From Haematobia irritans (lineage: Eukaryota; Arthropoda; Insecta; Diptera; Muscidae): a DNA stretch of 64,000 nt. This document shows positions 3,180 to 47,239 of the stretch, piece after piece; position 1 is the first letter of the stretch; each line of letters begins with the position of its first letter. The notes below the pieces were generated by a model. It worked only from the letters and a program-made list of their open reading frames with translations, did not search any database and had not been told where the DNA came from. The position numbers and the translations under genes were made by a program. Location: assembly GCF_050003625.1 (NCBI RefSeq), contig NC_134398.1:68394891-68458890 (forward strand), read 5' to 3'.

Positions 3180-5092
3180 TATTTGGACCTCCCCTTGGAG
3201 AGCACGGTTAGTGCTAGAAGTCTAGAAGCAGTGTTAAACGCGTGAGTGTAGAGGTGGAATTCTTTTTCATAGTCCGGGTAATAAAGCATTACATCCTTAG
3301 AAAGTAAGGCATTCTTCAACCCATCGATTGACTTTTTCTCTAAATCACCCAGTGTTATTTTGACTTTGCTTGATTCCGACTTGGGTATATTTCCGTATGG
3401 ACCTCTTAACATGGAAGTTAAGGGTTTCGCAATATCTGCATATCCCTGTATGAAACGCCTATAATAATTGCAAAGATCCAGGAATGATCTCAGTTTTCGT
3501 AGTATATTCGGATATGGTATATCAACTATTGCGTCGACATTCTTTCGAATAGTTTTCACGCCCTCGCCTGATACTAAGAAACCCAAAAATTCGACGTCAC
3601 TTTTAAAGAATTCACATTTGTCTAATTGTATTTTCATGTTTGCCGCATTGAGCGTTTTAAATATTTCCTGTAGATGCATTAAGTGGGATTCCTCGTCTCT
3701 GCTAAATATTATAATGTCATCAATGTAGACATAGCAGATTTTACCTATGTAGTCCCTAAGTATGTCATCGGGTGCTCTCTGGAATATCGAAGGTGCATTC
3801 TTCAATCCAAATGGCAACCTATTGAACTCATACTTCCCATTATTAACTGAGAAGGCAGTTTTCTCTATATCCTGCTCTTTTAATGGTATTTGATGGAAAC
3901 CACTTTTGAGATCGATGACAGTAAAGAACTTATTACCACCGAGACGAGACAAAACTTCCCCAACTTCTGGTATTGGATACCTATCGGCTATGGTAATGGC
4001 ATTCAATTTCCTGAAATCTACAACGATACGGTATTTCTTTTTTCCCGATGAGTCCTCCTTTTTTGGTACGACCCATATTGGCGAGTTGTATGGTGAGCGG
4101 GAAGGTCTTATAATTCCGTCTCTAAGTAATTTACTAATTTCTTCGTCAACTACATCGTTTAAAGCCATCGGGTATGGATAATTCCTAGTGTATGTAGGTG
4201 AGTCAGTTGTAGTTCTAATCTCTCCCATCACTCTTGTGGTGTACGTTAGCCTTTCGTCAGGATCGGCAAACAAGTTTCTAAACTTTTTAACCATTTCCAT
4301 AAGTCGCGAGGTTTGATGAGGGGTTAGATGTTCCATACGTATTTCGATGTTATTAACATTTTGTGTTAGATATTGATGTATTGGTATTTTGAGGCCATTT
4401 TTTACCGAAAAGTAATTTTCGGCAGAATAAATGACTGCTGACAAATCTTTCAAAGTGTCATTACCCAATATTTCATCAAAGGTCCTTAATCCTGGTAGGA
4501 TATAGAATTTGATGGGTCCGGTGTCCTCACCAAATACGTCTATGATGGTATGATGGGTAACTAAAACGTTTCCCGAGAAGGCATTTGCCGAAAATATTTC
4601 CTGATTAGGTAGGGGTTCTTTTACTAAACTCGATTTGATATAATTTTTATTACTGCTTGTGTCCAATAAAATTTTAAGGTCCAGTCTGTTCCTCGTTTTG
4701 ATTATAAAATATGGCAACGAGGAACTATTTAACCAAAAAAAATTAAGATCCGTATTTAATTCATTGGAAGGGTAATCAATATTTTTGTTGTATTCCTCCT
4801 TGCCGTAATCAAATGGATGGAGATAATCTTCAACTTCTTCCCTGACCATGACTTCGTCGTACTCCTCAGAGCATACGGCGTCAATCTCCCATGATCCTGG
4901 ATTCGTTGAATCATGAGTGTCATTAATCTGATTATACTCTGAATCTTGATTACCCATTGTTTCCAAGTGGAAATTCCTTTGAATTTTATTTATCGGACCC
5001 TGGAAAGGTCCTGCTGGTCTTTTAAAGGTATTAAATTGTGGCCGATTTACATAATTAACTTGTCTAGTTTGAATAGATTGGTCAATTTCCAT
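3152..5092 (-). pseudogene. gypsy pol: protease and reverse transcriptase, truncated
   Basis: A 646-codon frame. The N-terminal part overlaps the Gag end. A retropepsin-like segment has LLDTSS where DTG is expected. From about residue 290 there is a gypsy-type RT with WVVPKK, RIVVDFRKLN, FGLKNAP and YIDD motifs. The frame ends shortly after the start of RNase H, at a deletion that fuses it to env, so connection, full RNase H and integrase are absent. It overlaps gag by 46 bp in another frame, as expected for frameshifted gypsy pol. The altered protease triad and the deletion argue against function. Confidence 0.88.
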
Positions 5093-8993: not shown

Positions 8994-9355
8994 TGTGTAA
9001 TCAAGGCCATAGCCAGGATTTTAATTCGGGGGGGGGGTTCAAAATATTCATATAATCTCATGTGTACAAAATGTTATTTATGCATAGGTGTGTATACAAT
9101 ATTTTTATACCCTCCACCATAGGATGGGGGGTATATTAACTTTGTCATTCCGTTTGTAACACATCGAAATATTGCTCTAAGATCCCATAAAGTATATATA
9201 TTCTGGGTCGTGGTGAAATTCTGAGTCGATCTGAGCATGTCCGTCCGTCCGTCCGTCTGTTGAAATCACGCTAACTTCCGAACGAAACAAGCTATCGACT
9301 TGAAACTTGGCACAAGTAGTTGTTATCGATATAGGTCGGATGGTATTGCAAATGG

Positions 9356-10180
9356 GCCATATCGGTCCACTTTTACGTATAGCCCCCATATAAACGGACC
9401 CCCAAATTTGGCTTGCGATTGCTCTAAGAGAAGCAAATTTCATCCGATCCGTCTGAAATTTGGTACATGGTGTTAGTATATGGTCTCTAACAACCATGCA
9501 AAAATTGGTCCATATCGGTCCACTTTTACGTATAGCCCCCATATAAACGGACCCCCAAATTTGGCTTGCGATCGCTCTAAGAGAAGCAAATTTCATCCGA
9601 TCCGGCTGAAATTTGGTACATGGTATTGGTATATGTTCTCTAATGACCATGCAAAAATTGGTCCACATCGGTCCATAATTATATATAGCCACCATATAAA
9701 CCGATCCCCCGATTTGGCTTGCGGAGCCTCTAAGAAACGAAAATTTCATCCGATCCGGCTGAAATTTGGTACATGGTGTTGGTATATGTTCTCTAATAAC
9801 CATTGGTCCATATAGGTCCATAATTATATATAGCCCCCATATAAATCGATTCCCAGATTTGTCCTACGGAGCCTCTTGGAGGAGCAAAATTCATCCGATC
9901 CGGTTGAAATTTGGAACATTGTGTTAGAATGTCGTCTCTAACAAGCACGCAAGAATTGGTCCATATCGGTCCATAATTATATAGCCCCCATATAAACCGT
10001 TCCCCAAATTTGATCTCCGAAGCCTCTTGGAGGAGCAAAATTCATCCGATCCCGTTGAAATTTGCAACGTGGTGTTAGTATAAGGCCGCTAATATCCATG
10101 CCAAAATTGGTCCATATCGGTCTATAGTTATATATAGCCGATCCCCAATCACACAAAAATTGGTCCATAACGCTTCATAT
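9356..10180. repeat. tandem repeat, about 150-bp period, six copies
   Basis: Units begin near 9356, 9510, 9663, 9810, 9960 and 10110 with variants of tggtccatatcggtcc and include tatagcccccatataaac and catccgatccggctgaaa. Copies are diverged, with periods of 146-154 bp. Open frames of this region merely read the repeat and are not genes. Confidence 0.85.
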
Positions 10181-12157: not shown

Positions 12158-12586
12158 TGTACAAATCCGTGAGGTGTTTCCTTTAGTGGACTGTAGATAA
12201 AGATTAACTCTCGGAAATGTAAAGATTTTTGTTGTAACGAGAAGAGAAGAAAGCAAAAGGCAAAGTTTAAGTTTAAGAATTCAAAAGTATGGTTTTATTC
12301 AGGATGACGGCAGCTTACCAAGGGCAATGACGAAGCACAAGTGAAGTTTTACAACAAACGAAGTGTCAGTCAGACATTATGATTTAGAATTTACAACAAT
12401 TAAATTCATTTTGAGTAAAAGCTTTAGAGTTATCGCATAAAGGTTGAATTCAAGTATCGATAACAATAATTCATATTATGTATTGGCAATTCAATTATTT
12501 TCGTTAAATTCAAATATTCAAACATTATTCAAAATTTTCAAAAAGTTAATAATAACCTAAGAACAGTTGTGGAACGGAGTTCAACA
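12158..12586 (-). repeat. 3' LTR of BEL element
   Basis: 429 bp, same as 24593-25021. Just inside it (12587-12599) lies the polypurine tract, AAGGGGGGCGGCA on the minus strand, which primes plus-strand synthesis. The outer flank is target duplication ATGTT. Confidence 0.95.
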
Positions 12587-12612: not shown

Positions 12613-13500
12613 TCAATAAGAACAGGCTCCAGATATTATCCATCCAAACACAGAACTTTGGGCGATGGGCATTGAGGTCGATGTCTGAATGAGGCCAGCC
12701 AACAAGATCTTTGACAACTGATCGTTTCCAACTACAAGTTCTATGTCAGTTGGTTTAAAAAAATGTGGATCTGCCAAGTTAGGCAGATGGTTGTAGACGG
12801 ACTGAAGTTTCTTATTCTTAAATTGGTTCTTCACTATGCCAGTTATTTGAATTTTTACGGTTGGATCATAGTAAGACTGCAAATTCAGTGTGCAGAATTC
12901 GGTGTTGTTTTTCCTGGTTGTACGTAGATGAAGACGCTGTACCAGTGACTTCAGAACCAATGTTTGTAGACCAGCTGAGTTTAACATTAACCGTGCTTTT
13001 ATGGGACCGTTTGGTGTCAAAACTCGGGCTAGAGCGGTTGGCAGGAAGATGTGTCTCTTTGGTCTTTGGCTCAGTCTTTCACGTACTAGCGGTGGAGAAC
13101 TTCTGTTTAGCGTATGAGGGGATTTCCGATGGTTTTTTCTGGCGCTCTCATGGTGTGGTTGGTTATCTCGTCGTCCTTTCCTTCTCATGTGATCATCGAC
13201 ATGGAGCATTGTGTGGTGGTTGTAATTGCATACCACGCAAGTTTTTCTGGATCTGCACCATTCGCGTGTGTGGGAAGCACAGAGGCATTTAAAACAAAAG
13301 CGATGTTCTTTCATATGCTTTCTCCGTTCAAGGACGTCCATCCGTTGAAATTCGGGGCAGTCTTTTAAGATGTGGCGGTTATGGCAGATACGGCATTTCG
13401 GCTGACTAAATGAGGTACTGTAACGTAAATTTATTAACTTGTGAACTTGAGAATAAAGATTATGAAATTTAGTTGGCAACGGGTAGAATACACAGTTTAA
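12613..13500 (-). CDS. BEL second ORF: zinc knuckles plus inactive protease-like domain
   Basis: Open minus-strand frame in the position where env would be. It overlaps the end of the Gag-Pol ORF in the +1 frame. It opens after a stop at 13503-13501 and has no ATG before about residue 47 (the first possible start is TTG at 13479), so frameshifting, reinitiation or splicing would be needed. Residues 31-93 hold three knuckles ([40 protein letters not shown]). A DUF1758-like protease domain follows, ending FGWIISG. The same module occurs in ORF1 (about residues 326-602), but the catalytic FIDQGSQ is LNSAGLQ here, so Asp is Asn. No signal peptide or membrane segment. Function unknown; a nucleic-acid-binding accessory protein is possible. 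Confidence 0.75.
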
Positions 13501-16500
13501 CTATTGGACGCAAAAGCGTACCAGATTGTGTCTTAACTTCAGCAACGCGGACCTTTGAGTCAGGACCGCGAAATACCTTAATAACACGTCCCAAACTCCA
13601 TTCAGTCGGCGGCAAGTTATCGTCTTTAATAATGACTAAGTCGTCTTCTTTAAGATTTTGCTGTTCTGTCTTCCATTTATATCTCTTCTGCAAGTTGGAG
13701 ATGTACTCGTTCTTCCATCTCTTTGCGAAATTAAATTGGATCGTTTTCAATCTTTGCCATCGATTTATTAAAGTCAAGTTATCAGTACATTGTTCTGGTG
13801 CAGCAATCAATGCGGACCCTCTAAGAAAATGGCCAGGTGTTAAAGCAGTAATTTCCGAAGGGTCTTCGCTTATAGGAGACAAGGGCCTAGAATTCAGTAC
13901 ACTTTCTATTCTAACTAGTAGAGTAGAGAATTCCTCATAAGTAAATTTAATATTGCCTGCGGCTTTTCGAAGGTGGGATTTCATGCTTTTGACAGCAGCT
14001 TCCCATAGTCCACCCATGTGAGGTGCATGTGGTGGAATAAAGTGCCAAGTGAACCCGTGAATATTGTATTTGTCAACTAGACCTTTCTCAGAAGATTGTA
14101 TAAAGTTTCGATATTCTCGAGAGAGTGCTTTGCTGGCACCAACAAAATTGGTCCCATTATCAGAGAATACTTTATTAGGTAAACCACGTCTCCCTACAAA
14201 TCGATCAAATGTGGCTAAGAAAGCTTCAGTAGTCAACTCGGAGCACGCCTCCAGATGCACAGCTCGAGTTGATAAACAAATGAAAACAGCGGCATAACCT
14301 TTATGAAGTTTCGCGTTTCGTAATTTCGAAGTTTTCAAATCGAATGGGCCGGCAAAATCCAAACCCGTGTTGGTAAAGGGCAGTGAAAAAGTACAACGCT
14401 CTTCAGGCAATGCAGCCATTATCTGATTTCGAATGCGCTGTTTATATATTGTGCAAGTACGGCAATTTCGAATACAAGATCGGACAGAGTTCTTCAAACG
14501 TATCACATAGAATTCAGCTCGTATTGCCCGTAACATACCTTGATGTTCGGCATGTAAAAGAATTTTGTGGGTAAAAGTTAAAAGCAATTTAAAAAAGTGA
14601 GAATGTTCAGGCAGAATGATCGGATACTTCTCGTTGTATGGAAGATCCGAGTTCGCTAAACGACCATTTACCCTAAGTAAGTTTCGTTCATCTAAAAACG
14701 GGTTCAGAGTCAGAAGTTTGCTCTTAGAAGATATGGGTTGTTTATTTTCCAATGCATGATATTCCGCATGAAAAAATTTAAGTTGTGCCAGCCTAATTAA
14801 TTGAAATTTGACCGTTCTAATTTCCGCTGAAGTAATAAGTTGATCCCCAAATGAGTCAGAATTCCGCTTTTGACATTTCCTTATAAATCTGTACATAAAA
14901 CATACAACTCGTAGAGCTCGGCTGAAGGAAGAGAATCTTTCAAGTACGTCTTCCATATGTGTCTCGATTTGGAAGTTAACAGTTTTTCGCTCAAGTTCTG
15001 GCTCCTGAAATGTTTTAGACTTTGGCCAACATTCTGAAGGTTGTACCAACCACTTTGGTCCATGCCACCAGAGATGATTATTTTTCAGTTCTGCCGCAGT
15101 ACAGCCTCGCGTTCCAATATCGGCTGGGTTTTCAGTAGTTGGAACATATCGCCAAGTTACATTTCCCACATTATCCAAAATTTCTGAAATCTTATTTGCG
15201 ACAAAGGTTTTCCAATGGAAAGGCGGTTTATCTAACCAGGCCAAAGTAATAGTTGAGTCGCACCAAAGATAAACACCGGTAACAGGAAAAGTCAGATTTT
15301 GGGATATTGATTTCAAAAGTCTAGACAGTAGTGCCGCGCCGCACAATTCTAACCTGGGTAAGCTCACTGTTTTCAAAGGTGCCACCTTAGTTTTTGAAAC
15401 AAGTAAGTTTGATGTTATACAGTTCTCAGGTGATATAATGCGGATATATATACATGCGCAGTATGCTTTTTCGGAAGCATCGCAAAATCCGTGAATTTGA
15501 ATACGCCTGTCGGGTGCGTAATAAATCCAACGAGGTATTCGGATATACTCAATGTCAGAAAAATTGGAGATGAAAGAATTCCATTTTTGAAAAGAGTGAG
15601 GCTTGACTTCCTCATCCCAATCAGTTCCATCAAGCCAAAGTTGTTGTAAAAGCATCTTTGCTACAACTATAATCGGCGCCAACCAACCAGCGGGATCGAA
15701 TATCTTTGCCACAATAGATAATATTTTCCTTTTCGTCATCGGTGAGGTAGGAAGAGCAATATTTGAAACGACATAGAAAAAAGAATCTGACATGGCATTC
15801 CACCGAATGCCTAATGTTTTTGTTTCGCTGGTATCTTCAAGTTTCAAGAAATCTTCATTTAGAAGATCTTCCGGGGGCACATTGCGAAGAATATGTGGGT
15901 GATTAGCCGTAAGCTTTTTAAGTGGAAACCCAGCAGAATTAAGTAGATCTATAAGTTCTAACAAGTAAGCCTTGGTCTCAGTTAATGAATGTCCCCCAGA
16001 AAGAATATCGTCAACATATGTTTGGTTTCGTAAAATATGTGAAGCTGTGGGATGAGTAGTTTTTCCTTCTTCGGCTAATTGTAAAAGTGTGCGAATAGCC
16101 AAGTATGGAGCACAGTTTACTCCAAAAGTAACAGTCTTCAAGCAAAAGTCTTTGATCCCTTCGGTCGTATTTTCCCGGAATAAAATGCGCTGATATTGTC
16201 TATCATCCTGATGAACATAAATTTGGCGATACATCTTTTGAATATCGCCATTAAACACGTATCGGAAGAAACGCCAGCGTAGTACAACATTCATCAGTTC
16301 ATTTTGTAGTATCGGTCCAGTATGCAGAATATCATTCAATGCGACTCCCGTCGAAGTTTTCTTCGAGGCGTTAAATACCACACGTACTTTTGTAGATGAC
16401 CTTTCAGGTTTTACGACTGCATGATGTGGAAGATAAAAGGAAAAATATGCAGAGTCACGACAGATTTCTGAGGAAGACGTTATCTCCATGTGGTCAAGTG

Positions 16501-18649
16501 TTAAATATTCAGATAAAACAGCAGTGTATTCTTCAGCAAGTTGAGGCGATTTTTTCAAGTTCTTTTCCATATGAAGATATTGACCGAGGGCAGCTGGTCT
16601 TGAAGGTCCTAGAGCTAAGTCTTTGGGTAGATCCTGACGAAAGGGTAATCTAACTTGATATCTCCCGTCAGATTGGCGAACAGTAGTTTTCCGATAAAAA
16701 TCTTCACACCACATGTCAGTTTCAGACAAATTTTTTGAAGTTGGAACTTCTTCAAGTTCCCAAAATTTTCTAATTTCAGTATTAAGTGAATCAGTACAAG
16801 TCACAAAATTCGCAAACACTTGAGTAGATCTAGTTTTTGGAGGGCCACTCAAAATCCAACCAAATTCAGTTTCTTGTGCAAGAAGACTTCCAGATATATT
16901 TCTTCGCACGCCCGATTTCAAGATGAATGGAAGAATGTCGCTACCTAATAACATGTCTATTTGCGCGGGTTTGTAAAAGTAGGGATCAGCTAAGTCAATA
17001 TTTTCCAAATCTGACCAGTTAGAGATCTGGGTTGGGTAAGAGGGCATTAAGTGATTCATATTTGAAATAACTAACGCAGTTGTACGAATTTTGAAATCAG
17101 ATTTTCGAGATTTTAAAATCAGATGACAAAGTTTCGAAGAATTCTCAAGAAGAGTACCCCCTAATCCCGAAATGGTAGTAAATGACTTCTTGGTCGGTAT
17201 TAAGTATCGCTTTACAAGTCTGCTTGAAATAAAAGATTCTTGGGATCCTTGATCAATAAAAGCCCGTATTGTTAAATTAGTTCCTAAGTGTTCTAAATAG
17301 ATTAACGCCGTTGGCAAAATAGTAGAATCTGCAGAACTAGTAAAGTTAGATTGCACATGTGAAACTGAATTTCCATAAGCAGCAGCTGATGTCGAAGGTT
17401 GATTATCATATGCAGTTTCCGTATGAAATGTCGTGACTTCAGGTGGTGGACTACCTTGTGGCTCCTGAACAGAATCTGGGTGTAAAAGTGTATGATGTTT
17501 CTGATGACACTTCTGACAAACATTTTCGCTTTGACAATTTTGCGCAGTGTGGCCGTAACACAAACAATTTGCGCATACTTTGTTGTCCTTGACGAACTTT
17601 CTCCTTTGTGCAAGTGACCAAGTTTTGAATTTAAGACAGGCTCTCAAAGAATGATTAAGTTTGCAAGCTTTGCAAGATCGGACTTTGGAATCAGTTTTCG
17701 TGTGATAAGTCTGAGTTTTCTGAGTCACATTTGTATTATTTGAAGGCTTCCTCATGTCAGAAATAGATTCCAACATATTTAATCTTTTTGAAATAAAGTC
17801 GTCCAATTGCTCCCAAGATGGCATTTCTTTATGATCGCTTAACGAATTTTCCCAGGCTGTCAAAGTTTCATCCGGAAGTTTTGATGAAACCCAGAAAACA
17901 AGGAATGGATCCCACGACATGACCGATATATTGTAAGTTTTCAATATAGAAAGACAATTGTTTATAGTGTACTGCAAGTTTCGTAGAGCTTTTCCTTTTT
18001 CCGAAGTTACGCGCTCAGTTTCAAATATTTTCCTGAGCTGATGATTAATAAGTATGCGCTTATTTTCGTAACGTTGACGTAGGGATTCCCAAGCTAAGTG
18101 AAAGTTGTCATCAGTTAATGCGAATTGTTTTACAATCTGATTAGCCTCCCCACGAGTCTTTGCCCTTAAGTGAAATAACTTTTGTGCCGGAAACAATTTT
18201 GGGTGATTGACATAAATGGCTGAGAACATGTCTCGAAAACTGGGCCATTTGTCATAACCACCACCAAACATTTCAGTATCGCATGGAGGGACTTTCAAAG
18301 AATACCCAGTCACCTCCTGCGATGTGGTCCCAAGTATTTCTTGAGGACGCGCAGATCGCTCCATCGCTCTTTTTTCTATTTCAATCAAGTCCAACATATC
18401 AGCTTTGCATTTCTTATAAGCCCTTATAGACTCATTAAACTTCGCGTGTATTGACTCTTTCTCCGCCTTAGCGCTATCAGTAACCATCTCTGTCTCGTAT
18501 ACCTGAGTGAGAGTCTGCCAACGCCGTTCTAAGTCTTCAAGATCAACTTGCAGACTTGAAAGTCTGTGCTCAGAAGTATCAATAGCACTGAAGTTGGCGC
18601 AATAAGTGACGACTTGGTCCGAAAAAAATATGAACTTTTGTGAAGCCAT
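13469..18649 (-). CDS. BEL/Pao Gag-Pol polyprotein
   Basis: Uninterrupted 1726-codon ORF starting at ATG (MASQKF). Rough order: coiled-coil N terminus; DUF1759 Gag-like domain (about 125-290); three zinc knuckles (326-392); DUF1758 aspartic protease with FIDQGSQ (Asp about 465); Pao RT (about 730-960) with the YVDD active site near 878; Pao RNase H (about 1030-1200); H2C2 zinc-binding and DDE integrase (catalytic Asp in GLDFAGPF, Asp in SDNGTNF, Glu in GLWEAAVKS); DUF5641 C terminus. All key residues are present, so the protein could be active. It overlaps the second ORF by 11 bp past the TTG. The encoding element is young. Confidence 0.96.
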
Positions 18650-24592: not shown

Positions 24593-25021
24593 TGTACAAA
24601 TCCGTGAGGTGTTTCCTTTAGTGGACTGTAGATAAAGATTAACTCTCGGAAATGTAAAGATTTTTGTTGTAACGAGAAGAGAAGAAAGCAAAAGGCAAAG
24701 TTTAAGTTTAAGAATTCAAAAGTATGGTTTTATTCAGGATGACGGCAGCTTACCAAGGGCAATGACGAAGCACAAGTGAAGTTTTACAACAAACGAAGTG
24801 TCAGTCAGACATTATGATTTAGAATTTACAACAATTAAATTCATTTTGAGTAAAAGCTTTAGAGTTATCGCATAAAGGTTGAATTCAAGTATCGATAACA
24901 ATAATTCATATTATGTATTGGCAATTCAATTATTTTCGTTAAATTCAAATATTCAAACATTATTCAAAATTTTCAAAAAGTTAATAATAACCTAAGAACA
25001 GTTGTGGAACGGAGTTCAACA
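24593..25021 (-). repeat. 5' LTR of BEL element
   Basis: 429 bp, which I read as identical to 12158-12586; it presumably carries promoter and polyadenylation signals. The outer flank is target duplication ATGTT (25022-25026) inside a tctatagaa array. Confidence 0.95.
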
Positions 25022-25401: not shown

Positions 25402-26305
<904 letters not shown>

Positions 26306-26564: not shown

Positions 26565-27784
26565 ATGAAGTTTAATCAGCTTTGAGTGGAAGACTTGAAG
26601 AAGGAGTTGAGCAAAATGGAGCAGCCGACTACAGGAAACAGGGCTCAATTACAAAAGCGACTACTGGAAGAGTTCGAGCGGCGAAGTATTGATATCGAAA
26701 CACATGAGTTCGATTATAAAGAAGATCTTGACGAATCAGTAATAGCCAGCGCCTTGGAAACTCTATCTGTAGCTTCTAATGTTGTTGATTACACATCGAT
26801 GGTCAATATTTTGAGCAAAATGATGGAAGAAAATTCTCTAAAAATGCAAGAGAATTCTAGAAAAACGATGGAAGAAAATTCTCTAAAAATGCAAGAGAAT
26901 TCTAGAAAAATGATGGATGAAAATTCTCTAAAAATTTTAAAAAATTGGAAGAAAAATTCGACGAAAATTCAAAAAAGATGGACGAAAATTCTAGAATTCT
27001 AAATGAGAATATTCAACAAATTGCTGAAGGCATGGAAAAACGTGTGGACCATATCGGAAGCCAAATTGGGGAGCTGGATAAGAAGATTATTTCTGTGGAT
27101 GAGAAAATTATGGTTCATGATGAGAAGTTTCTACACATTGAAAGAAAAATGTCAGAGCTGGAAATTAAAGGTGGACCAGTGCGCGTTATCGAGGGCTCGA
27201 AAACCAAACCTCCTGTTTTCGATGGCTCAATTTCATTTGATGTATTCAAATTCCAATTCGAAATGGTTGCTTCTAGAAATTTATGGAATGACAATGACAA
27301 AGCAATTGAACTTCTATTGACATTAGAGGGCAATGCCGGTAATGTGATACAAAGCATTCCCGCTGCCTCTAGAAATAATTATAATGAATTAATAGCGGCA
27401 CTTCAACGTAAGTACAGCGGAGAACATAAGCGAGACATCTTCAGAATGGAATTAAGAGGAAGAGTCCAGAAGTCAAATGAGACTCTACAAGACTTTGCAA
27501 CAGAGGTTGAGCGGTTGGTGCTTTTGACATATCCAGGAGAAAGTCATCCACTTGTGGACCGCATCAAGATCGAGATCTTTGTGAATGGAATTAGAGACCC
27601 TGATATAAAATGTGCAACATATGCGTCACAAAAGGCTACATTCTCAGAAACAGTAACATTTGCACTTGCACAAGAAACTGCGAGATTGTTAGCACGACCT
27701 CAAATTCACAAGGTACGCAGAGTGGAGACCGAGCAAGATGAATCAAATTCCGTGATTGACTCAGTGAAAGAAGCCTTTAAGTAG
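26565..27784 (+). pseudogene. gag with SAP-like N terminus, disrupted
   Basis: Homologue of the minus-strand gag. The start MKFNQL is followed by TGA at codon 7, where the other copy has Arg. The SAP-like motif (LKKELSKMEQ, then GNRAQLQKRLLEEF) covers roughly residues 8-40. Coiled-coil 14-residue repeats come next, with a frameshift near 26940, then a capsid domain that stays open to 27784. SAP domains usually bind AT-rich DNA; a role in targeting the integration complex to chromatin would be inference. Confidence 0.8.
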
Positions 27785-29550
27785 GCAATGCAAGAAATAA
27801 AGCAGGAGACAACTAAATCCAGAATAAAGTGCTATAACTGTGATAAGCCTGGACATGTTGTTCGTGAATGTAAAGCACGTCGTAAGCGATCAAGATCGAA
27901 ATCGCCTTCACCACCAAACAATAGCCATATGTGTGTCCAGTGATTCACATTTAAACTAAATCGAGCTAGTTCAGCGGAGCAAGAGCTGGCTCACACATGT
28001 GATGGCCCCTCAATCTCTATAGCAATAGTTCAACAGAAAAATAACAATTTGACTATTGTGGGTGGTATTAATGGATACAAGCGAACTTTGACGTTGGATA
28101 CTGGTGCATGGAAATCTATCATTATATCCGATTTAGTAAGAGGAAAAGTTACACCACTAATTGGAGTCAGATTACGCACGGCTACAGGTGAACCCGCAAC
28201 TGTATATGGAAAGGTTCCTGCAAAGTTAACCATTGCAAACAAATCCGTTAATTACGAATTCATTGTGGCCGATATAGTGGACGAAGTTATAATTGGAGCG
28301 GATTTTATGATTGCTTTTGGTCTCAACTTGGATATGAAGCGTCGTGTAATGACCTGGTGCGATAGCGAAATACCGGTAAACGTAGGCTACAGTGAGAATA
28401 CACCTGTCAGATGTTTGACAATGAGCCATCCAGAGTTAATACCACCAAATGCCGAAACAATTATATGGGTTTCTATGAATGGAGATTGTGAAGTCGGCAA
28501 ATTGTGGGTTGTTGAACCAGCAGAAAATAAAAACAACAACATCCAGGAGAAAGTCATCCACTTGTGGACCGCATCAAGATCGAGATCTTTGTGAATGGAA
28601 TTAGAGACCCTGATATAAAATGTGCAACATATGCGTCACAAAAGGCTACATTCTCAGAAACAGTAACATTTGCACTTGCACAAGAAACTGCGAGATTGTT
28701 AGCACGACCTCAAATTCACAAGGTACGCAGAGTGGAGACCGAGCAAGATGAATCAAATTCCGTGATTGACTCAGTGAAAGAAGCCTTTAAGTAGGCAATG
28801 CAAGAAATAAAGCAGGAGACAACTAAATCCAGAATAAAGTGCTATAACTGTGATAAGCCTGGACATGTTGTTCGTGAATGTAAAGCACGTCGTAAGCGAT
28901 CAAGATCGAAATCGCCTTCACCACCAAACAATAGCCATATGTGTGTCCAGTGATTCACATTTAAACTAAATCGAGCTAGTTCAGCGGAGCAAGAGCTGGC
29001 TCACACATGTGATGGCCCCTCAATCTCTATAGCAATAGTTCAACAGAAAAATAACAATTTGACTATTGTGGGTGGTATTAATGGATACAAGCGAACTTTG
29101 ACGTTGGATACTGGTGCATGGAAATCTATCATTATATCCGATTTAGTAAGAGGAAAAGTTACACCACTAATTGGAGTCAGATTACGCACGGCTACAGGTG
29201 AACCCGCAACTGTATATGGAAAGGTTCCTGCAAAGTTAACCATTGCAAACAAATCCGTTAATTACGAATTCATTGTGGCCGATATAGTGGACGAAGTTAT
29301 AATTGGAGCGGATTTTATGATTGCTTTTGGTCTCAACTTGGATATGAAGCGTCGTGTAATGACCTGGTGCGATAGCGAAATACCGGTAAACGTAGGCTAC
29401 AGTGAGAATACACCTGTCAGATGTTTGACAATGAGCCATCCAGAGTTAATACCACCAAATGCCGAAACAATTATATGGGTTTCTATGAATGGAGATTGTG
29501 AAGTCGGCAAATTGTGGGTTGTTGAACCAGCAGAAAATAAAAACAACAAC
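27531..29550 (+). repeat. perfect 1010-bp tandem duplication in gag-protease
   Basis: 27531-28540 and 28541-29550 are direct copies joined at the shared trinucleotide atc. I saw no difference between them. Each holds the capsid end, one CCHC knuckle and most of the protease. Very recent, or an assembly duplication. Confidence 0.9.
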
Positions 29551-29853
29551 ATCTTTATAGCAAATGCCCTGGTAACAACAAATGAAGAGGGACTTATACC
29601 AGTTCGAGTTTTGAATTTATCTGACCATCAAGAGCAAATTGGAAAATGTTCGGACATTGGCAAGTGTACTCCCGCCGAAGCAATAGTCAACTTGGAAAGC
29701 AAATCGCCAAAGAAGCATAATGAAGTGATGAAACATCTGGAAGGTTATGTCGAAACTTGGACACATCATCTATCACCGTCCAAGAAAAATAAAGCCAAGA
29801 AATTGTTATCGAAAAATGCCTCCGCCGTTGCCATTGAGAAGAAAACAAGGTAG
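28049..29853 (+). pseudogene. nucleocapsid and aspartic protease, duplicated
   Basis: Each tandem copy carries a zinc knuckle (CYNCDKPGHVVRECK) and a retropepsin domain with intact LTLDTGAWKS and an IIGADFM flap-side motif. The first copy fuses out of frame into gag at 28541. The second (29059-29853) continues into the protease-RT linker before a stop. The catalytic residues look sound, but the surrounding pol is broken. Confidence 0.82.
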
Positions 29854-36165: not shown

Positions 36166-36307
36166 AAAACAGCCCTAATGTTGTTTGAAAAGAAATAATA
36201 TGGGTGTTACATTGTTGAATATGGAAGGCTAAAGAAGTTATAAGGGAAAAGGGGATGTAAAGGACAGGTAAGTAGCATTTGGGATGTCCCGAATGGGTAG
36301 GCCACGT

Positions 36308-36673
36308 CCTGCCAGCATTTCAAAGTTCCATTTCATCCTCATCGCTACCACAGACTCGTAAATGTCACTACAACAATCGCCAACTGTGATGGAGGAAGCA
36401 TATCAAAATCATTGTTAATCAACCACAATGATTCTTTTACAGCTACCTTAAAATGCACTTTTTCTGATAGTTTGAAGGGGCTCTTATTGGCGTCGTTCTA
36501 AATTGACCTAAAAATGCACCTAATTATTGCACTGATGAGAAACTTGTAGAACCTTGGCGTGGTACAACTTCTCAATAGTGACGGCGCTTTTCCGACGAGA
36601 TTTTGATGTCATATACGATTGTTTTCGACGTGGCGGCGATTCTCAGCCATCAAATTCAAAAAATGTTGGCAGG
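36308..36673 (+). mobile_element. CCTGCC-family TIR element, copy B
   Basis: Both termini present: CCTGCCAGCATTTCAAAG at the left and the inverse of CCTGCCAACATTTTTTG at the right. It is internally deleted relative to copies A, C and D. Target duplication not clear. Confidence 0.8.
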
Positions 36674-37014
36674 GTGGGGACACCATGGTTGGGGAGGGTT
36701 AGGCCACGGCATGCTTTGGGAATCCGGCATGCAAGGGAAACAATATGAGTGGAGATTGTCTTACGATTTTTGATACGTACCTGTTGTGTTTTGTGATGTC
36801 CATCAAAGGCTGGTTATTTGTTTTTTTTTGCCAGAGGACTGAGTTGCCTATGAACCGCGCCCCATATACTGAGCCAAAAGCCGGCAACATCGTTCAGCAA
36901 CCAGCGCATGGCAACTCGGTTCCTCACTCCAGATGGCAGTACCCCAGGGCTGTGACAGAATTTTATAAAAAGCTCATCAGATTACGGTAAAAAGAAAAGG
37001 AACGCAGGAAGAAA

Positions 37015-38762: not shown

Positions 38763-41700
38763 ATGAATGAAGAATACGATGCAATTGTTTTGGGTACCGG
38801 CCTAAAGGAGTGTATCTTGAGTGGTATGCTTTCTGTATCCGGAAAGAAAGTACTTCATATTGACCGAAATAAGTACTATGGAGGTGAATCTGCCTCTATT
38901 ACACCGTTGGAGGAGCTCTTTCAACGCTTTAATATCGATGTTCCCGGTGATAAATATGGGCGCGGCCGTGATTGGAACGTAGATCTGATACCAAAATTCT
39001 TGATGGCCAATGGACAGCTGGTAAAATTGTTAATACATACGGGCGTCACCCGTTACCTAGAATTCAAGTCAATTGAGGGTAGTTATGTCTACAAGGGAGG
39101 AAAGATTGCCAAGGTCCCCGTTGACCAAAAGGAAGCCCTGGCATCAGATTTAATGGGTAAGTTGTATTAAAGTAAATTTTAATTGGCTTATAAACCCAGG
39201 GCACTTGTCTGGTAAAGTGTCCTCTACTCCGCCCCTCAGTGAATAATTTTTGTGACACGTATATGATGTTCTATGGTAGTAGTGGTATAATGGAATCAAA
39301 AGACGAGAAAGGGAGGTTGCAATTGTAGAGTGATAAGATGACTGTGCAAAACAGTTATGTACATTGTATTTCGGCAATAATAGCATTTTCTGTTTCGAAT
39401 GAAAGTATCTCAAGGAAATTTTTATTTTATTTTATTACGCTGTTATTTTTTACAAGTGAATTGAAGTTAAATGCTATTATTGGTTTGTGTCGTCCGTACG
39501 GAATAAATTTGTAGTTGCCACTTCGATAGAATTTACAATAACTTTTAAATCAGACCCAAACGAAATGTATGTATATTTGCAAACGAACATTCTATGAACG
39601 TTATTATCGATTGCTTGCACTTTTCAGAGATGAAACATAGAAATATAAATCTAGTACATATTTCGGAGATTACGAACAACCATTTGTATGTTCAAAACAT
39701 TCTCAAATTAAGAGAACTCTTTTTAATAATTAAGTTGAAAAAGACAAAACCTTCTAAACTCATTGTTATAAACAAAACATATGTAAATGTGTAAATAAAA
39801 TAAATTAATAAATATATGTATTATAAGAAGAAATATTGGGAAAACCTATTTTAGGCAAGCTACATTTCTTTGGTGTTACCTGTTCAAGAACACTGTATAA
39901 AACCGACCTGTACACACGCAAGAATATTCTTTCAAAATCATATCTGGTACCCGTTATCTTATATGGCTGCGAATTATTTAGCAAATGCGACGAAAGCAGA
40001 AAACGACTAGATCATCGCTTTTTACAATGTTCTGGACATTAGAAAACTTTTAAATAATATATAGTGAAATACTATATAATGAAAATCATGTAAGTCTCTT
40101 CAATAGACTTACTGTTGGTAGATCCAACAGAAGAATCAATGGTACCTATCGTCATCGTCTACTGATATCTGAAAGGCGTTTTTTCACTATACAATTCGTC
40201 TATGGATCTCACTGACCACTCAAATTAAATTCATTGGCAAGACAAATTCTATTATAAAATATTTTTATATTTTAATTCTTTATTTCCTATTATTACGTTC
40301 ACTTTGTTTTGTTAAATGTATGAACTTTTGTATTTTTTGATGATCAATGTATCTATTTAATCTTTCAAAAGTATTCAATTTTTTGATTATTTTTTAACTT
40401 ATTAATTATTATTTAATTTTTTATTAATTATTAAAAGAAGTAAGTTTTATACTCTCATATTTCTACCACTAATATCCACGTACTGTAAGATTTAAAATCT
40501 TGATGTTTGTGCAAATAAATAATATAAAATCAATGTCAAACATAAAATAAATACTATAACTGCTGGGATTAAAGCCCTCATTAACAATAACGAATAACAA
40601 CACAAATTAACGGATACCGTAGCTAATATAGAATACAGTGCATTATGGGATCAAAACTAATGGGGTTTTCTGAAAAAAAAATTATTTTGAATTACAGAGA
40701 GTACACTTTTAAAATGCTGGCGGTAAGCTTAAAATATGTTATCACTTTAACGGATAGAAAAGAATTCAAAGAATTCGTAAAATGAACAGCAACAAAAATT
40801 ATAAATATAAACATTCTCGTGTGTTCCTTATTTCTGTCCAATACATTGGTATAAAATAGGGATAAATACACTGTTCATTGAAATTATTTAATTTTCATTA
40901 ATTAACGTCACCATGAAAAGCCATCTCTTCATTCACGTTTGTCGGCAGTGCTGAAAATGCCATCTTAAGGTGAGTATTAAGTTCGAGTTTAGCCGTTAAT
41001 TTTCACTAAAGTTAAAACTAAATCAGTAAAAAAAAGTCATAAAATTATATATATTTGTTGCAGATTTCATTATAACTTGATGGGGATGGGGACGATTTTA
41101 GCGGCTAAACTCGAACTTAATACCCACCTTTAGCATGAAATTATTTTCACAACAGAATTAGAAGCCTTTACGAACAGCTGGTTTTTATCATGGTCTGGGG
41201 ATTATTGGGACCATTTTTTCATGCGGCTGCAGAGTGCATGAAATAATATATTACAGGATGCTGATAGAAAAAAAAACAAGTGGAAATTTCGATTCAGCGT
41301 CCTAAATAACTCTTAAAACAACATTCAGTTCTAAATCAACAGAACCATTGTTCCCTTGTTTAATCTTTAAATTCGGATAATTGATGTTTTCCAAATTAAT
41401 AAAATCTTAGATATTGGCATGACTAAACATTTATCTTCCAAATAAAACTACGATCTTTTTGAGGATAGTCCCCCTCCTCCTGATTTCTCCGTATACACAC
41501 AAAAATTGCGGATATTTTTAATTCAATCTTCATCTTCAATCACGAAAATTATAGTATCAATCACCCACTTTGATTGAAAACCAACACCATTTTCAATTAA
41601 AAAGTTAATTGACCTTTGTCACGGAATCAATTATCCTGCCAACATTTTTTGAATTTGACGGCACTACTCGAAAACAATTGTGTACGACATCAAAAACTCG

Positions 41701-44700
41701 CCGGAAAAGCGCCGTCACTATTGAGAAGTTGTACCACGCCAAGGTTCTACAAAAAAGTTTCTCATCAGTGCAATTATTAGGTGCCTTTATTAATAAATCT
41801 AGAACGACACCAATAAGAGCCCCTTCAAACTATCAGAAAAAGTGAATTTTAAGGTAGTTGTAAAAGAATCATTGTGGTCAAGTAAAACACGATTGTGTAG
41901 ATGTTTATTAATTTGATTAAATATTTATAAATTCTTATAAATATAAAATCTTTCCGTTTTTCTCATCACATTTAACATAACTTTTTCCATTAATAAAAGA
42001 ATGATGTTGATTTACACGTAGCAAGTTACATGTTGCAGCGTCTATCAGCCGTTTGTTTATTCTCGATGGAAGCAGCGTGTCTTGAAAGTCTGTGATAGCG
42101 ATGAGGATGAAATGGAACTTTGAAATGCTAGCAGGGTGTGATTGAATCAATTGAAACATTTATTGGGTTTTGACATAAAATTCAATCAACATTTTAATTG
42201 AATCAATTAAAATTTTAATTAATTTCGAAACAAAAAATCAATCAACTATTTGCTTTCAAAATATGTATGCACACATTTCGAACGCAGCAGCCAGACCCTG
42301 CCAGCATTTCAAAGTTCCATTTCATCCTCATCGCTACCACAGACTCGTAAATGTCATCACAACCATCGCGAACTGTGATGGGGGAAGCATATCAAAAAAT
42401 AACAAAATGTACATGAAAGTATTTTGCCATCACTACTGTTAGAAGAGCCATTTTATTTTTTGTGAGACGCCAAGCGCAATCAGCTTGTTATATTTTATTT
42501 AAATAAAAACGAAAATAAAGTTCTGAAAACATAGATATTACGCTTAAAATTGTGAAAGGTATATGGTGAACAATTTTCGACTTTCCAAATAGAATAAAGT
42601 GATCGTTTTTCAAATATTTTTCCAGGCACGCTGTCTCCATCGAAAATAAACAAACTGGCTGATAGACGCTGCAATATGTAACTTGCTACTTAAAACTCAA
42701 CATCATTCTTTTATTAATTCAAAAAATTATGTTAAATGTGATGAGATAAACCGAAAAATGTTATATTTATAAGAAATTATAAATTCGTTTTGTTTGTTAT
42801 TGTTGGCTTTTCTTCAATCGTTATTGTTGTTTTTGATCTCAGCTTAAAGCCATGCATTGACTAAACTACAAGTGTAGCTTAACCAACAGAGGAAAAGTAT
42901 GCTTGTCAAATTTATTTGGGCAAAGCCCTATAGACTGCAAGATGGTTGGATGTACAGCTGTTTCGGAATTACCACATTCCTCATCAGCATCCTCTACTTG
43001 CAGCAAAACTATCAACCAATTATCAGAATAAATTCGGGTAATTCACTCAACCCAAAGTGAACTACACTTGAACCTTCCGAAAAAGGGTTTTGATAGTCGG
43101 CTACTGCCTAAAACAAATTCGCAAGCATATCTCTTTTCCTTTGCCAAATCATCGATTTCGATTTGAATGTAAATGGCTGGGTTACTTCCACAGACTGATC
43201 TCACCATCATACGTTGTTGAATAAATACTAGGGCTGTCATTCGGGATCGATTTTTATAAATCCCGGGATTTCAAAATATAGAATTCCAACAGCGCCAAAA
43301 ATTGTTGTAATTCAATTTTATTAACAAAAAATAACAAAAGAACATAAGAGTAAATTAATACCAATTACAAATTGCTATCATAATTAACGAACACTGAACA
43401 ATATGAAGAAAAGAAAATCAAAATTAGGACAAAAATTAAATACATTTCATATCGCTATCTTACTCAGCAAAACATTTTAAGGACTTTGATTAGATTAGGT
43501 CTATTTTCGTGCACTGTGTTAATTCTTTTGTACTTCATCGTTTTAAGTAACTTCTTAAAAATACCAATGCATCCAAATTTTTATCAGATAAACGCGATCT
43601 TGCCATATTCTCGACAGACCTTTTATCATTGCTTTTTGTTTTATGTAGCACAAATTCCAGTTCACATGAACGCATTGTTCTCATGTATAATACATTCTTA
43701 CTCAAGGTGTACCATAAAAGTTTATTAACTCAATTTGTCAGGCACTGAATGAAGACTCCAAATTATGAATAAATAATGCTAAAAAGACACCAATTAATAA
43801 AATTGGTATTAGTTTTTCGGGATCCCGAAAAATCCCGGGATTCAAAATAAAAACCCCGGATTTCGGGACGGGATTTATCCCGGTTGACAACCTAATGAAT
43901 ACACATTCTCTTGTTCTCTTTTCGCTCCAGTTTATTATTAAATTTCAATTACAAAGGTGATTTAATCAATTACATGTTTAATTGGGAAAAGTTTTCAATC
44001 ACGTTTGCAATTGAAAATTAGTTCCGAATTGCTTAACAAATTAATTGGAAAAAATTAATATCATTAATTTTAATTAATCATTTTTAATTGGTTTTTAATC
44101 GGATTTGATTAAATAATTAATTGTATCAATTAATATATTAATTGAATCTGTTTTCAAATTCACTTAAGTGATAATTTTTTGTGTGTATTTAAATGTCTAG
44201 CCCATAGAAATATAAAAAAACCAAATGTAACTAGATAATAAAAATTTTATAATTATGGTATGGGTACAGTACATTTAAAGTTGCAAAAATCGAAGCACCC
44301 TGTTTTGGAACTTCGGTAAACTTTTTACGTCGTTCCCATAAATGATATTTTTTGTTTAAACATTATCCTATTAGATAAAAGATCAGCAAATAAATACATA
44401 CACACACAAAATATTTTTTGTCTTCATTGATCCAATTAATTTTTAATTGAAATATCTTTAATCACAGAAATGATAGTATCAATCAGAGAACGGCTGCGAT
44501 CTACCGCAACCGACCAGTGTATTTAGTAAACACCAACATTTGCAATCTTAAAACACCAATGGGTAAAACAAATTTCAACCACCAATGCAACCGACGACTG
44601 TCGGTGTTTGTTAGTATGAGTGTTGGTCTCTCGAAAACACCGTAGTAAAGCAATCACACCAATTGGTTACCCATATCTCAGCAGTTTGGTATTCTCTTAT

Positions 44701-47239
44701 TTGGTACTCTCTCACTTCTCTTGAGTTAATGCCAACTGCTAGTAATTGTTGTTGTTGAGTGCAATCACACTTAAGTGCCAACCTCGTTTTTTGTTTACCG
44801 AGCGTTGTTACGATGTCGATTGGTTTAAGATTACAAGACACTGCATACGAACATTGTTATATTCGCATTTGTATCAATGTAAAAGATCGCTTGGTAATTG
44901 GTGTCTTACTCACTGCCACCGACATTTTTTGGGTAAGATTGCAATAAGAAAAAAGCCACCGGTTGCAGTTCTCTGGTATCAATTCAAAAATTAATTGAAA
45001 GTCAATTAATTTTTTTTTTTTGTGATTGATTTTTGTTTCAATTAAAATTTTTGTTAAGTCAATTAAATTTTTAATTGAATATTTTTAAAACTCAATTATG
45101 AATTTAATGGGAAAAATTTTCGTGAATTTTTTTCTGTTTATGATGTAAAATTGTTCTTGTGTCGCAAACTATTTATCACTCATAACGGACATCGAAATGG
45201 CCATATGCCTGTACGAAATGTGGTAAACTCACTATCTTTGTTTTGAGAAAGGTTTGATTTGGATCAACTGCAGTTTATGGGCATGAACAAAAATAATAGT
45301 TTTCTCACGATAGTATATTTCTATGTTAACCTTTATGATTATGTTAAGAGAATAAAATAAAGAAATGTTCATACACAATTATGGACCAAACGTCATACAA
45401 ACGAAAAGTGAAAGTGGGTTAACGCAAGCCATTTTGATTCACTCATTTTAAACTCTGCCCCAGATTCAAATTGGCCTAACGCGAACTCAAAGTGGTATCA
45501 TTGACCGGCATTGTTTTTGAGTGTTCCTCGTATGGACAGATTTCAAATTACGCTAAGAGTTTCAAGTGACCAGCCTTTATCCGTGGTGTGAGATTTTTTC
45601 CTATGAATAGTGAGTTTTGGACCATGGTTTGAAACTGTCTTCTATGAATGGAGTCTAAAATAAGTTAGCCTACTTTTCTAAGTACATTTTATACTCAGAA
45701 TTGAAGCGGAAAAATATAACTCAACAAAGAAAAAATTATAGGCTATAGTCGAAAGCTTTTTGAGATACAGAAATTTTTTTGATAACTATAATCAAATTTC
45801 GCAATATAGTACGTCAAATTCAGATAGCTCGATGTGATGTCCATAAGCAACAACAGTATGTAAAATGATTCGGTGAGTGAAGGCTTTTAAACTGATAAAA
45901 ATTTGAAAATATCCCTTGAAAGAGAAAAAAACAAGACTTACAAAAAGAATACTTATTTGAGGAATTTAATGTTTTAAATTATATATTACACAACAACATA
46001 GTCTTGGTGCATAAAAATAACTGAAACATTTGCATATAGTATTTAACTAATATTGCTATAACACATAAATATCAAAATTTTTTCCCATTTTTGTACTAAT
46101 GGCTATTTTTTTTTTAAATACATACATATGTATATTAACAATTATTTTCTAAAATTATGGAAAATTATGAACTTCAATATTGAATACATATCAAAATTTT
46201 AATTGCTCGCTTTTTCCATTATGTTTTATTTAAAGGAATGTTCGAAAAACGGCGTTTCCGCAACTTCTTGATCTATGTCCAAGATTTCAAAGAAGATGAT
46301 CCAAAAACCTGGAAGGATTTCGATCCCGTGAAGGCGAACATGCAGGGGCTCTATGACAAGTTTGGATTGGATAAAAATACACAAGATTTTACCGGACATG
46401 CTCTAGCGCTATTCCGTGATGATGAATATTTAAATGAACCAGCTGTTAAAACCATACAACGCATTAAATTATATTCTGATTCGTTAGCTCGGTATGGCAA
46501 ATCGCCATATCTCTATCCAATGTATGGTTTAGGTGAACTACCACAGGGTTTCGCTCGTCTGTCTGCTATTTATGGTGGCACTTATATGTTGGACAAGCCA
46601 ATTGACGAAATTGTGGTAGGAGAAGGTGGCAAAGTAGTTGGCGTTCGTTCTGGAGATGAAATAGCTAAATGCAAACAGGTCTATTGCGACCCTAGTTATG
46701 TTCCCGATAAGGTAATTTGAAATTATGAGTACTGTTTAAATACTTGTATATGACTTTGGAATTTATATAAACTATAGGTACGAAAGAAGGGACAAGTGAT
46801 CCGTTGTATTTGCTTATTGGATCATCCAATTGGAAACACCAAAGATGCTCTATCAACACAAATTATCATTCCACAAAAGCAAGTTGGTCGCAAATCTGAT
46901 ATTTATGTCTCTTTGGTTAGCCATGCCCATCAAGTTGCAGCCAAGGGTTGGTTCGTCGGTATGGTGTCTACAACCGTTGAAACTGATCAGCCAGAAAATG
47001 AAATAAAACCTGGTCTAGAACTCTTGGAACCGATTGCACAAAAATTCATCTCGATCTCTGATTACTTTGAACCAATTGACAACGGTTCCGACTCTCAAAT
47101 ATTCATTTCAGAATCCTACGATGCTACCACACATTTTGAAACCACTTGTCTTGATGTTTTGGATATTTTCAAACGTGGTACTGGTGAAGACTTCGATTTT
47201 TCGAAGATAAAGCATGAATTGGGCGATGAAGATCAGTAA
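38763..47239 (+). CDS. Gdi: Rab GDP-dissociation inhibitor (3 coding exons)
   Basis: Coding exons 38763-39156, 46236-46711 and 46778-47239; 1332 bp in all, 443 residues, the same length I recall for Drosophila Gdi. It extracts prenylated GDP-bound Rab GTPases from membranes and recycles them through the cytosol for vesicle transport. The N terminus [14 protein letters not shown] is the conserved Rossmann-like segment; [29 protein letters not shown] and [16 protein letters not shown] are conserved GDI/REP motifs. The C terminus ends HELGDEDQ with no prenylation site, as expected. Splice sites are canonical: donor GTAAGT at 39157 (phase 1), acceptor AG 46234-46235, donor GTAATT 46712, acceptor AG 46776-46777. 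The ATG follows the AAAA context typical of flies. Intact. Confidence 0.97.
39836..40290 (+). pseudogene. non-LTR retrotransposon RT C-terminal fragment
   Basis: About 65 codons resemble the region after the RT palm in LINEs ([15 protein letters not shown], then [10 protein letters not shown]). After a frame change comes a tail with [12 protein letters not shown] and ISERRFF, as in LINE C termini. Degenerate, with stops and frameshifts. Clade not determined; different from the LINE at 61025. Confidence 0.6.
40968..41129. mobile_element. TTA-target MITE, copy 2 (162 bp)
   Basis: Ends AGGTGAGTATTAAGTTCGAG and (inverse) AGGTGGGTATTAAGTTCGAG, flanked by TTA (40965-40967, 41130-41132). Internal part shorter than in copy 3. 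Confidence 0.88.
41635..42135 (-). mobile_element. CCTGCC-family TIR element, copy C
   Basis: Inverted relative to copies A and B. Starts CCTGCCAACATTTTTTG and ends with the inverse of CCTGCTAGCATTTC. It shares the block with the gagaagttgtaccacgcc motif. No target duplication recognised. Confidence 0.8.
42297..42783 (+). mobile_element. CCTGCC-family TIR element, copy D, right end missing
   Basis: Begins CCTGCCAGCATTTCAAAG. It follows copy A over the segment with acgcttaaaattgt and gctgatagacgct and stops near gaaattataaat, just before the Penelope-type fragment. Confidence 0.78.
42795..43220 (-). mobile_element. Penelope-type retroelement fragment carrying a ribozyme
   Basis: The sequence looks like a non-coding repeat I recognise from muscid and tephritid genomes. 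It carries a hammerhead ribozyme fold (42935-43003), a known feature of Penelope-like element pseudo-LTRs. No RT or GIY-YIG frame is present, so the family assignment rests on the ribozyme. Boundaries are approximate. Confidence 0.5.
42935..43003 (-). ncRNA. hammerhead ribozyme (type I, short stem III)
   Basis: On the minus strand all invariant core bases are present. CUGAUGA (42987-42981); stem II GGAAU/AUUCC with loop GUGGUA; GAAA (42964-42961); stem III CAG/CUG with no loop; U then A before the predicted cleavage site (between 42953 and 42952). Stem I is GGAUG/CAUCC, extended beyond an internal loop by CTGCAAG/CTTGCAG (7 bp). The self-complementary stem III suggests activity as a dimer, as proposed for Penelope-type hammerheads. 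It lies antisense in Gdi intron 1. Activity untested. Confidence 0.85.
43229..43894. mobile_element. hAT-type MITE with TAGGGCTGTC ends (666 bp)
   Basis: Ends TAGGGCTGTCATTCGGGAT and inverse TTAGGTTGTCAACCGGGAT, with subterminal inverted cccggga motifs. Flanks ATAAATAC (43221-43228) and ATGAATAC (43895-43902) match at 7 of 8 bases, so an old 8-bp duplication. No transposase. Confidence 0.8.
44401..45138. mobile_element. AATTAATT-type Tc1 MITE, copy M2
   Basis: Left end CACACACAAAATATTTTTTG after TA (44399-44400). Right end the inverse of a CAGAAAAAAA terminus before TA (45139-45140), slightly worn. Interrupted by a hobo-like element (44484-44975). Confidence 0.65.
44484..44975. mobile_element. 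hobo-like hAT MITE (492 bp)
   Basis: Right terminus is the exact inverse of CAGAGAACTGCA, the 12-bp hobo terminus; the left end is CAGAGAACGGCTGC. Exact 8-bp duplication GTATCAAT (44476-44483, 44976-44983). Internal (cac)caat/ggtgt motifs repeat. No transposase; the short frames are not genes. Confidence 0.9.

Follow-up and report, generated by a model that had tools for sequence, protein, structure and literature searches.

The first coding intron of Gdi in Haematobia irritans holds, on the strand opposite to the gene, a short sequence that reads as a hammerhead ribozyme. Two questions follow: whether the motif descends from a working ribozyme or is a chance assembly of pairings, and what kind of element may have brought it there. 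The analysis covers a window of 64,000 nucleotides, which is the whole stretch of DNA studied, and all positions refer to it. The coding ORFs of Gdi lie on the plus strand from 38763 to about 39156, from about 46235, and at 46796-47236, with Pfam GDI matches on the three exon ORFs. Since the exon ends, taken from splice borders read by eye, fall at about 39156 and about 46235, the motif is antisense in the first coding intron, where the sequence-only reading had placed it.

Structure of the hammerhead motif

Read directly on the minus strand, positions 43004-42934 form a complete type I hammerhead with every published invariant position present. The 5' half of the RNA is GCUGCAAG UAGA GGAUG CUGAUGA GGAAU GUGGUA AUUCC GAAA, and after GAAA the 3' half continues as CAGCUGU A/CAUCC AACCAU CUUGCAGU, the slash marking the predicted cleavage point. 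The parts of the motif are as follows.

42934..43004, minus strand: whole type I hammerhead motif (direct reading, descriptor scan)
42997..43003, minus strand: distal extension of stem I, 5' arm CUGCAAG, partner 42935-42941 (reading, folding)
42988..42992, minus strand: proximal stem I, 5' arm GGAUG, partner 42948-42952 (reading, folding)
42981..42987, minus strand: core CUGAUGA, C3 to A9 (descriptor scan)
42965..42980, minus strand: stem II hairpin GGAAU-GUGGUA-AUUCC (folding)
42962..42964, minus strand: core GAA, G12 A13 A14 (descriptor scan)
42954..42961, minus strand: palindrome ACAGCUGU, with A15.1 = 42961 and U16.1 = 42954 (folding); stem III, 2 bp in the monomer and 8 bp between two copies (predicted folds)
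between 42953 (H17 = A) and 42952, minus strand: predicted cleavage point GUA/C (hammerhead consensus)
42948..42952, minus strand: proximal stem I, 3' arm CAUCC (reading, folding)
42935..42941, minus strand: distal extension of stem I, 3' arm CUUGCAG (reading, folding)

All 13 core positions listed in PMC3088659 (C3 U4 G5 A6 N7 G8 A9 G12 A13 A14 A15 U16 H17) are present, and the motif also fits the GAAAY box and the RUH cleavage triplet (here GUA) of PMC7936874. Stem I (GGAUG/CAUCC, 5 bp), its extension (CUGCAAG/CUUGCAG, 7 bp), from which an internal loop separates it, and stem II (GGAAU/AUUCC, 5 bp) are paired entirely by Watson-Crick pairs, while stem III of the monomer has only an A-U and a C-G pair, closing AGCU inside the palindrome. 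Three stems surround the core with the open end at stem I, and the segments run, from 5' to 3', stem I, core, stem II, GAAA, stem III and stem I, which is the type I arrangement. Type III hammerheads are described from dipteran genomes, namely housefly, fruit flies and soldier fly (PMC7936874), and share with the intron motif a hammerhead core in a fly genome, but differ in the open stem; as they open at stem III and have stem I closed, the segment order excludes this class here.

A strict descriptor (CUGANGA, GAAA, A15.1-U16.1, H17, at least 4 bp in stem I and at least 3 bp in stem II) matched the intron motif only, on both strands of the 64-kb window, and no second site appeared in the window when one core mismatch was allowed with stems I and II of at least 5 and 4 bp. 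A covariance-type model built from the intron motif alone gave 17 matches at E<=10 in the window: the motif itself, at 107 bits by construction, one at this site on the opposite strand, and 15 more, none above 15.9 bits. Most of the core was skipped in each of the three weak matches shown aligned, and descriptor scans of the window found no further core. Direct reading of the minus strand and the descriptor scan thus confirm both the complete fold and the coordinates that had been claimed, and the claim of a minimal stem III holds for the 2 bp of the monomer within the palindrome. Very probably, the motif is a real remnant of a dimer-type, type I hammerhead with a predicted cleavage point; that it descends from a working hammerhead is, as a judgement for which no figure was computed, likely.

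Chance, covariance models and predicted folds

In order to estimate how often such a motif arises by chance, 8.05 Gb of sequence were simulated under an order-2 Markov model. They held 1,159 sites with stems I and II of at least 4 bp and 155 with the core and stems I and II of at least 5 bp (2.5e-3 per window, about 38 per Gb), of which 51 also had a stem III of at least 2 bp (8.1e-4 per window, about 13 per Gb); four sites combined stems I and II of at least 5 bp with an extension of at least 6 bp. A second simulation of 7.84 Gb, with code that recovers the real site, used four models (order 1 on either strand, order 2 and order 3), which gave 31, 36, 44 and 48 sites with stems I and II of at least 5 bp (159 in total), stem III reaching at least 2 bp as well in 11, 11, 19 and 22 sites. 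The corresponding rates are 2.1e-3 to 3.1e-3 per window for stems I and II, and 7.2e-4 to 1.4e-3 with stem III. The full descriptor, including an extension of at least 7 bp, occurred neither in the 8.05-Gb run nor under any of the four models of the 7.84-Gb run, and zero events in the combined 15.9 Gb set an upper bound of under about 2.4e-5 per window on both strands, for null models that leave out the palindrome-richness of repeats. On the real window sequence, 6,909 of 400,000 random placements (1.7%) had an extension of at least 7 bp, and this rate multiplied by 8.1e-4 gives about 1.4e-5 full motifs expected per window. Small early simulations had yielded three sites with the core and stems I and II of at least 5 bp in 12.8 Mb, and none in 24 Mb and 26 Mb; the 12.8-Mb rate, about ten times higher than in the large runs, is superseded by the 8.05-Gb and 7.84-Gb runs.

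At these rates the bare motif is expected tens of times in a fly-sized genome, so that the core and three stems alone are no proof there; a warning that sequences fitting the hammerhead consensus are expected by chance in large databases is given in PMC3088659. A chance origin becomes unlikely when the 7-bp extension of stem I is counted. The sequence-only reading, which had called a chance match very unlikely, is therefore upheld with the extension included and fails for the core and stems I to III alone.

The search with Rfam covariance models that the same reading had proposed did not bring support. No Rfam family reached its gathering score in the window, and the hammerhead models gave no match at E<=10 in scans of 501 and 79 bases, run without a minimal-stem-III positive control, so these models either lay beyond the E limit or were filtered out. 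The only match at E<=10 in the 501-base scan was the snoRNA sn2343 (14.4 bits against a cut-off of 60), on the strand opposite to the motif and off it, and in the 79-base scan the snoRNA sR47 (8 bits against a cut-off of 40). Both were rejected, as their scores are far below the cut-offs.

Folding predictions, whose energies exclude tertiary contacts for monomer and dimer alike, give the 71-mer alone an interrupted hairpin of -24.1 kcal/mol in which the core CUG is paired with CAG. The hammerhead fold of the monomer has -17.9 kcal/mol, and -18.2 without stem III, so stem III gives the monomer no added stability; the ensemble constrained to the hammerhead lies 5.3 kcal/mol above the free ensemble. 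With two copies, the minimum-energy fold is a double hammerhead (-53.5 against 2 x -24.1 kcal/mol). In this prediction stem I, its extension and an 8-bp stem III form between the copies and stem II within each, and all core bases and H17 are unpaired. The dimer fold would be partly generic to any imperfect palindrome, but the core identities would not. A single copy is predicted to be nearly inactive by itself. The minimal stem III and dimer competence that characterize Penelope hammerheads are thus found here at the level of predicted folding. According to the review PMC6466107, double hammerheads are found in Penelope-like elements and go together with a stem III that is short and unstable; the loop of stem III has to be palindromic, and in eukaryotes the motifs must also stand in tandem. 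The intron motif has the palindrome, whereas a tandem partner is absent from the window.

Against this background it is unlikely that the motif was never a ribozyme and is only an imperfect palindrome in which the internal loop matches the hammerhead core by accident. Such an origin would agree with the single long interrupted hairpin as the best fold of the monomer, with its folding z-score of only -1.73, with the lack of a hammerhead match in Rfam and with the rate of about 13 per Gb for the core and stems I to III. It accords poorly with the absence of the 7-bp extension from 15.9 Gb of simulated sequence, from which palindrome-rich repeats are left out, and with the GAAAY, RUH and 8-bp stem III palindrome that also fit.

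The ribozyme-bearing piece and its neighbours

The motif lies in a piece of the intron that is bordered by a repeat copy and an insertion; the piece and two features within it were delimited.

42785..43228, minus strand: piece with the ribozyme motif, flanked by a repeat-family copy and a hAT-type insertion (blastn, border reading)
42856..42887, minus strand: downstream 14-bp hairpin with 4 G-U pairs (folding; stable on the minus strand only)
42785..42838, minus strand: A+C-rich 3' end of the element-like piece, up to the start of the repeat-family copy

On one side, a repeat family common to 25633-25887 and 41923-42087 stops at 42784 in blastn, which sets the border at 42784/42785. On the other, a non-autonomous element at 43229-43894 has the ends TAGGGCTGTCA and TAGGTTGTCA and is flanked by an 8-bp duplication (ATAAATAC and ATGAATAC, one mismatch); we take it to be hAT-type from this duplication and its ends. 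Palindromes AATCCCGGGATT lie near both ends of this element. The neighbouring repeat copies are 85-89% alike and are therefore old, and the piece 42785-43228 itself probably belongs to an older mobile element. Copies of the repeat family with CCTGCCA(A/G)CATTT ends are found at 41635-42140, 42292-42784, 25601-26142 and 36307-36675; two copies that face opposite ways make up a large inverted repeat next to the motif, and the second of these is truncated at 42784.

On the ribozyme strand the last 48 nt of the piece, a window length picked after looking, have an A+C content of 0.81, which few 48-nt windows reach (0.016% on this strand, 0.10% on the other). The region 42840-42900 folds with -14.3 kcal/mol on the minus strand (z -1.71) against -6.9 on the plus strand (z 0.44). 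Over 221 nt both strands fold equally well in comparison with shuffled sequences (z -2.37 and -2.40), and 43006-43228 has a folding z-score of -1.08.

Comparing 42400-43900 with the window by blastn gave no other copy of 42785-43228, only the piece itself and stretches of about 20 nt at E>=0.28; the relatives found were those of the flanking repeats, outside 42785-43228. A 30-nt core pattern with 3 mismatches allowed matched only the motif itself in the window. There are no tandem copies or array at the motif locus, and no pseudo-LTRs or tandem partner of the motif in the window. Neither patterns nor a peptide found relatives in viral contigs (16 pattern matches, none a relative), and there were none in bacterial genome contigs, plasmids, phages or the protein database; as these collections are bacterial, viral or metagenomic and may omit entries close to this genome, misses there say little about flies. 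Six DNA words of the piece had no match in the papers searched. Sequences like 42785-43228 may be repeated in higher-fly genomes.

The sequence-only reading had also stated that no Penelope coding sequence is nearby, and this was borne out. No ORF of at least 120 aa lies in the intron between the Gdi exon ORFs, and no GIY-YIG domain was detected in the 17 of the 32 window ORFs of at least 120 aa that were scanned against Pfam. Reverse transcriptase (RT) matches, typed by Pfam alone, occur in four of these 17 ORFs (at 1244, 3152, 13469 and 62330), one of them just below the Pfam cut-off, and all lie at least 19 kb from the motif. Among ORFs of at least 120 aa, then, the motif has no adjacent coding sequence with RT and GIY-YIG. 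Because Penelope coding sequence, pseudo-LTRs and tandem copies were not found in these scans of the window, we do not class the motif as a Penelope element, though it would work like one.

Elsewhere in the window, identical 429-bp direct repeats (12158-12586 and 24593-25021) stand on either side of a Bel/Pao-type ORF by Pfam (13469-18649, minus strand, 1726 aa), and are perhaps the LTRs of a very young element. A head-to-tail duplication of 1013 bp within a retroelement (27531-28543 and 28541-29553, 100% identical) is either a recent event or an assembly artefact. The region 419-3983 resembles an LTR retroelement with duplicated blocks more than 99% identical (419-1135/2075-2791 and 1134-2075/3042-3983), and 9353-10139 is a tandem repeat of 5.2 copies of a 153-bp unit.

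Possible origins of the motif

The explanation we favour, with moderate confidence, is a genuine type I hammerhead, weak in stem III and acting as a dimer, which survives antisense to Gdi, in its first coding intron, within the decayed remains of a mobile element; these would most likely come from the 3' part of a Penelope-like retroelement or a non-autonomous relative of one. In our judgement, and not by computation, the parent element has about an even chance of having been Penelope-like. The core, the stems, the palindrome and the double-hammerhead fold predicted for two copies are the observed basis of this account. In tandem transcripts of the parent, two motifs would have paired through an 8-bp ACAGCUGU helix, each supplying part of the active site of its partner, and would have cut at GUA/C, releasing units from the multimer. 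Today a single copy would be left at the locus, preferring the inactive hairpin, and would thus probably stay silent except where two transcripts come together; the sense pre-mRNA of Gdi would carry only the complement.

The parallel with dimer-acting Penelope-like hammerheads that had been drawn from the sequence agrees with the descriptions in the literature. Hammerheads of the minimal type I form are described as common in animals, where most lie scattered through non-coding DNA, some of them in Penelope pseudo-LTRs (PMC7761336), so the intron motif adds to an already known type. It shares with those of Penelope-like elements and Terminons the type I order, the minimal stem III with its palindrome, the expected action as a dimer, and an A+C-rich stretch that follows and adjoins AT-rich DNA; unlike these elements, the fly window is without Penelope coding sequence, pseudo-LTR or tandem copy. 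Penelope hammerheads are usually without helix III and tertiary contacts (PMC6155905), whereas in the fly motif stem I is lengthened by a further helix beyond an internal loop.

The anole Penelope-like element PAc (PMC11167929) has its hammerhead at the junction of pseudo-LTR and ORF, with the ORF starting at stem II; reverse transcription begins 111-118 bp downstream of the ORF start, within a stem loop rich in A+C, and the targets that are cut are AT-rich. The fly piece shows a like order of hammerhead, hairpin at 98-129 nt, A+C-rich end at 147-200 nt (counted from the core AUG) and AT-rich repeat copy, a likeness of layout that would count as resemblance and not as a test. Unlike in PAc, no stem loop holds the A+C-rich part, and where PAc has an ORF, the AUG within the hammerhead core opens 18 codons only. 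The PAc hammerhead gave no cleavage without the protein of the element, its mutants left insertion in vitro unaffected, and reads with an end at the cut site were absent (PMC11167929), so the inferred role of the hammerhead is not shown even in PAc; the review PMC7761336 calls the role of hammerheads in Penelope-like elements unknown.

Hammerheads of animal retrozymes usually have a long stem I interrupted by an internal loop. The piece could be an animal retrozyme or SINE-like monomer, a short non-autonomous unit whose transcripts, made by read-through or by Pol III, would be cleaved by pairs of type I hammerheads, closed into circles and inserted again with the help of borrowed enzymes; we regard this as possible but rather doubtful. 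Type I hammerheads of animal retrozymes, amphibian ones above all, have a weak helix III that favours dimers (PMC7229834, PMC7761336), and insects are listed among the genomes with such repeats (PMC7229834). The motif thus shares with amphibian satellite DNA and animal (non-LTR) retrozymes the type I order and a preference for the dimer, and with the amphibian ones a weak stem III, but theirs stand in tandem repeats while the fly motif is a single copy in the window. Retrozymes are described as tandem units of about 150-450 bp with a type I hammerhead, and no tandem repeat exists at the locus; moreover, most invertebrate retrozyme hammerheads are described with a stable helix III, acting as monomers. 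As to Pol III, the only A-box/B-box-like pair that the chosen pattern found in 128 kb falls in this piece, on the minus strand (TAGCCGACTATC at 43103 and GGTTCAAGTGT at 43074, starts 29 nt apart), though the pair is poorly matched at its ends and was looked for only post hoc. No tRNA in the window was detected by ARAGORN, and with two box-like words only, a tRNA-derived SINE was rejected as a firm identity and kept within the retrozyme reading. The Schistosoma Sm-alpha element is SINE-like. Like the fly piece, it has a type I hammerhead inside a small non-autonomous element, but the fly motif is without a proven Pol III promoter or family.

We consider it highly improbable that the ribozyme was co-opted on an antisense Gdi transcript, for example to cut or end it: all helices are intact and Watson-Crick paired although the neighbouring repeat copies are old, yet a lone copy with a weak stem III should be nearly inactive. 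Another conceivable but tentative origin is an undescribed non-autonomous family of flies with a dimer-acting type I hammerhead, in which a Penelope-like minimal stem III and A+C-rich tail would be joined to a retrozyme-like extended stem I. Among the papers searched, no title concerned type I hammerheads of higher flies or of Gdi; insects in general come up in PMC7229834 and mosquitoes in PMC3088659.

Most likely, the single intronic copy is a relic. With its intact palindrome and extended stem I, a copy of this kind in a fly would lend itself to testing whether tandem transcripts are cut through dimerisation, and whether Penelope hammerheads and retrozymes are kin. If an undescribed fly family of this kind exists, it would be a link between Penelope-like hammerheads and retrozymes.
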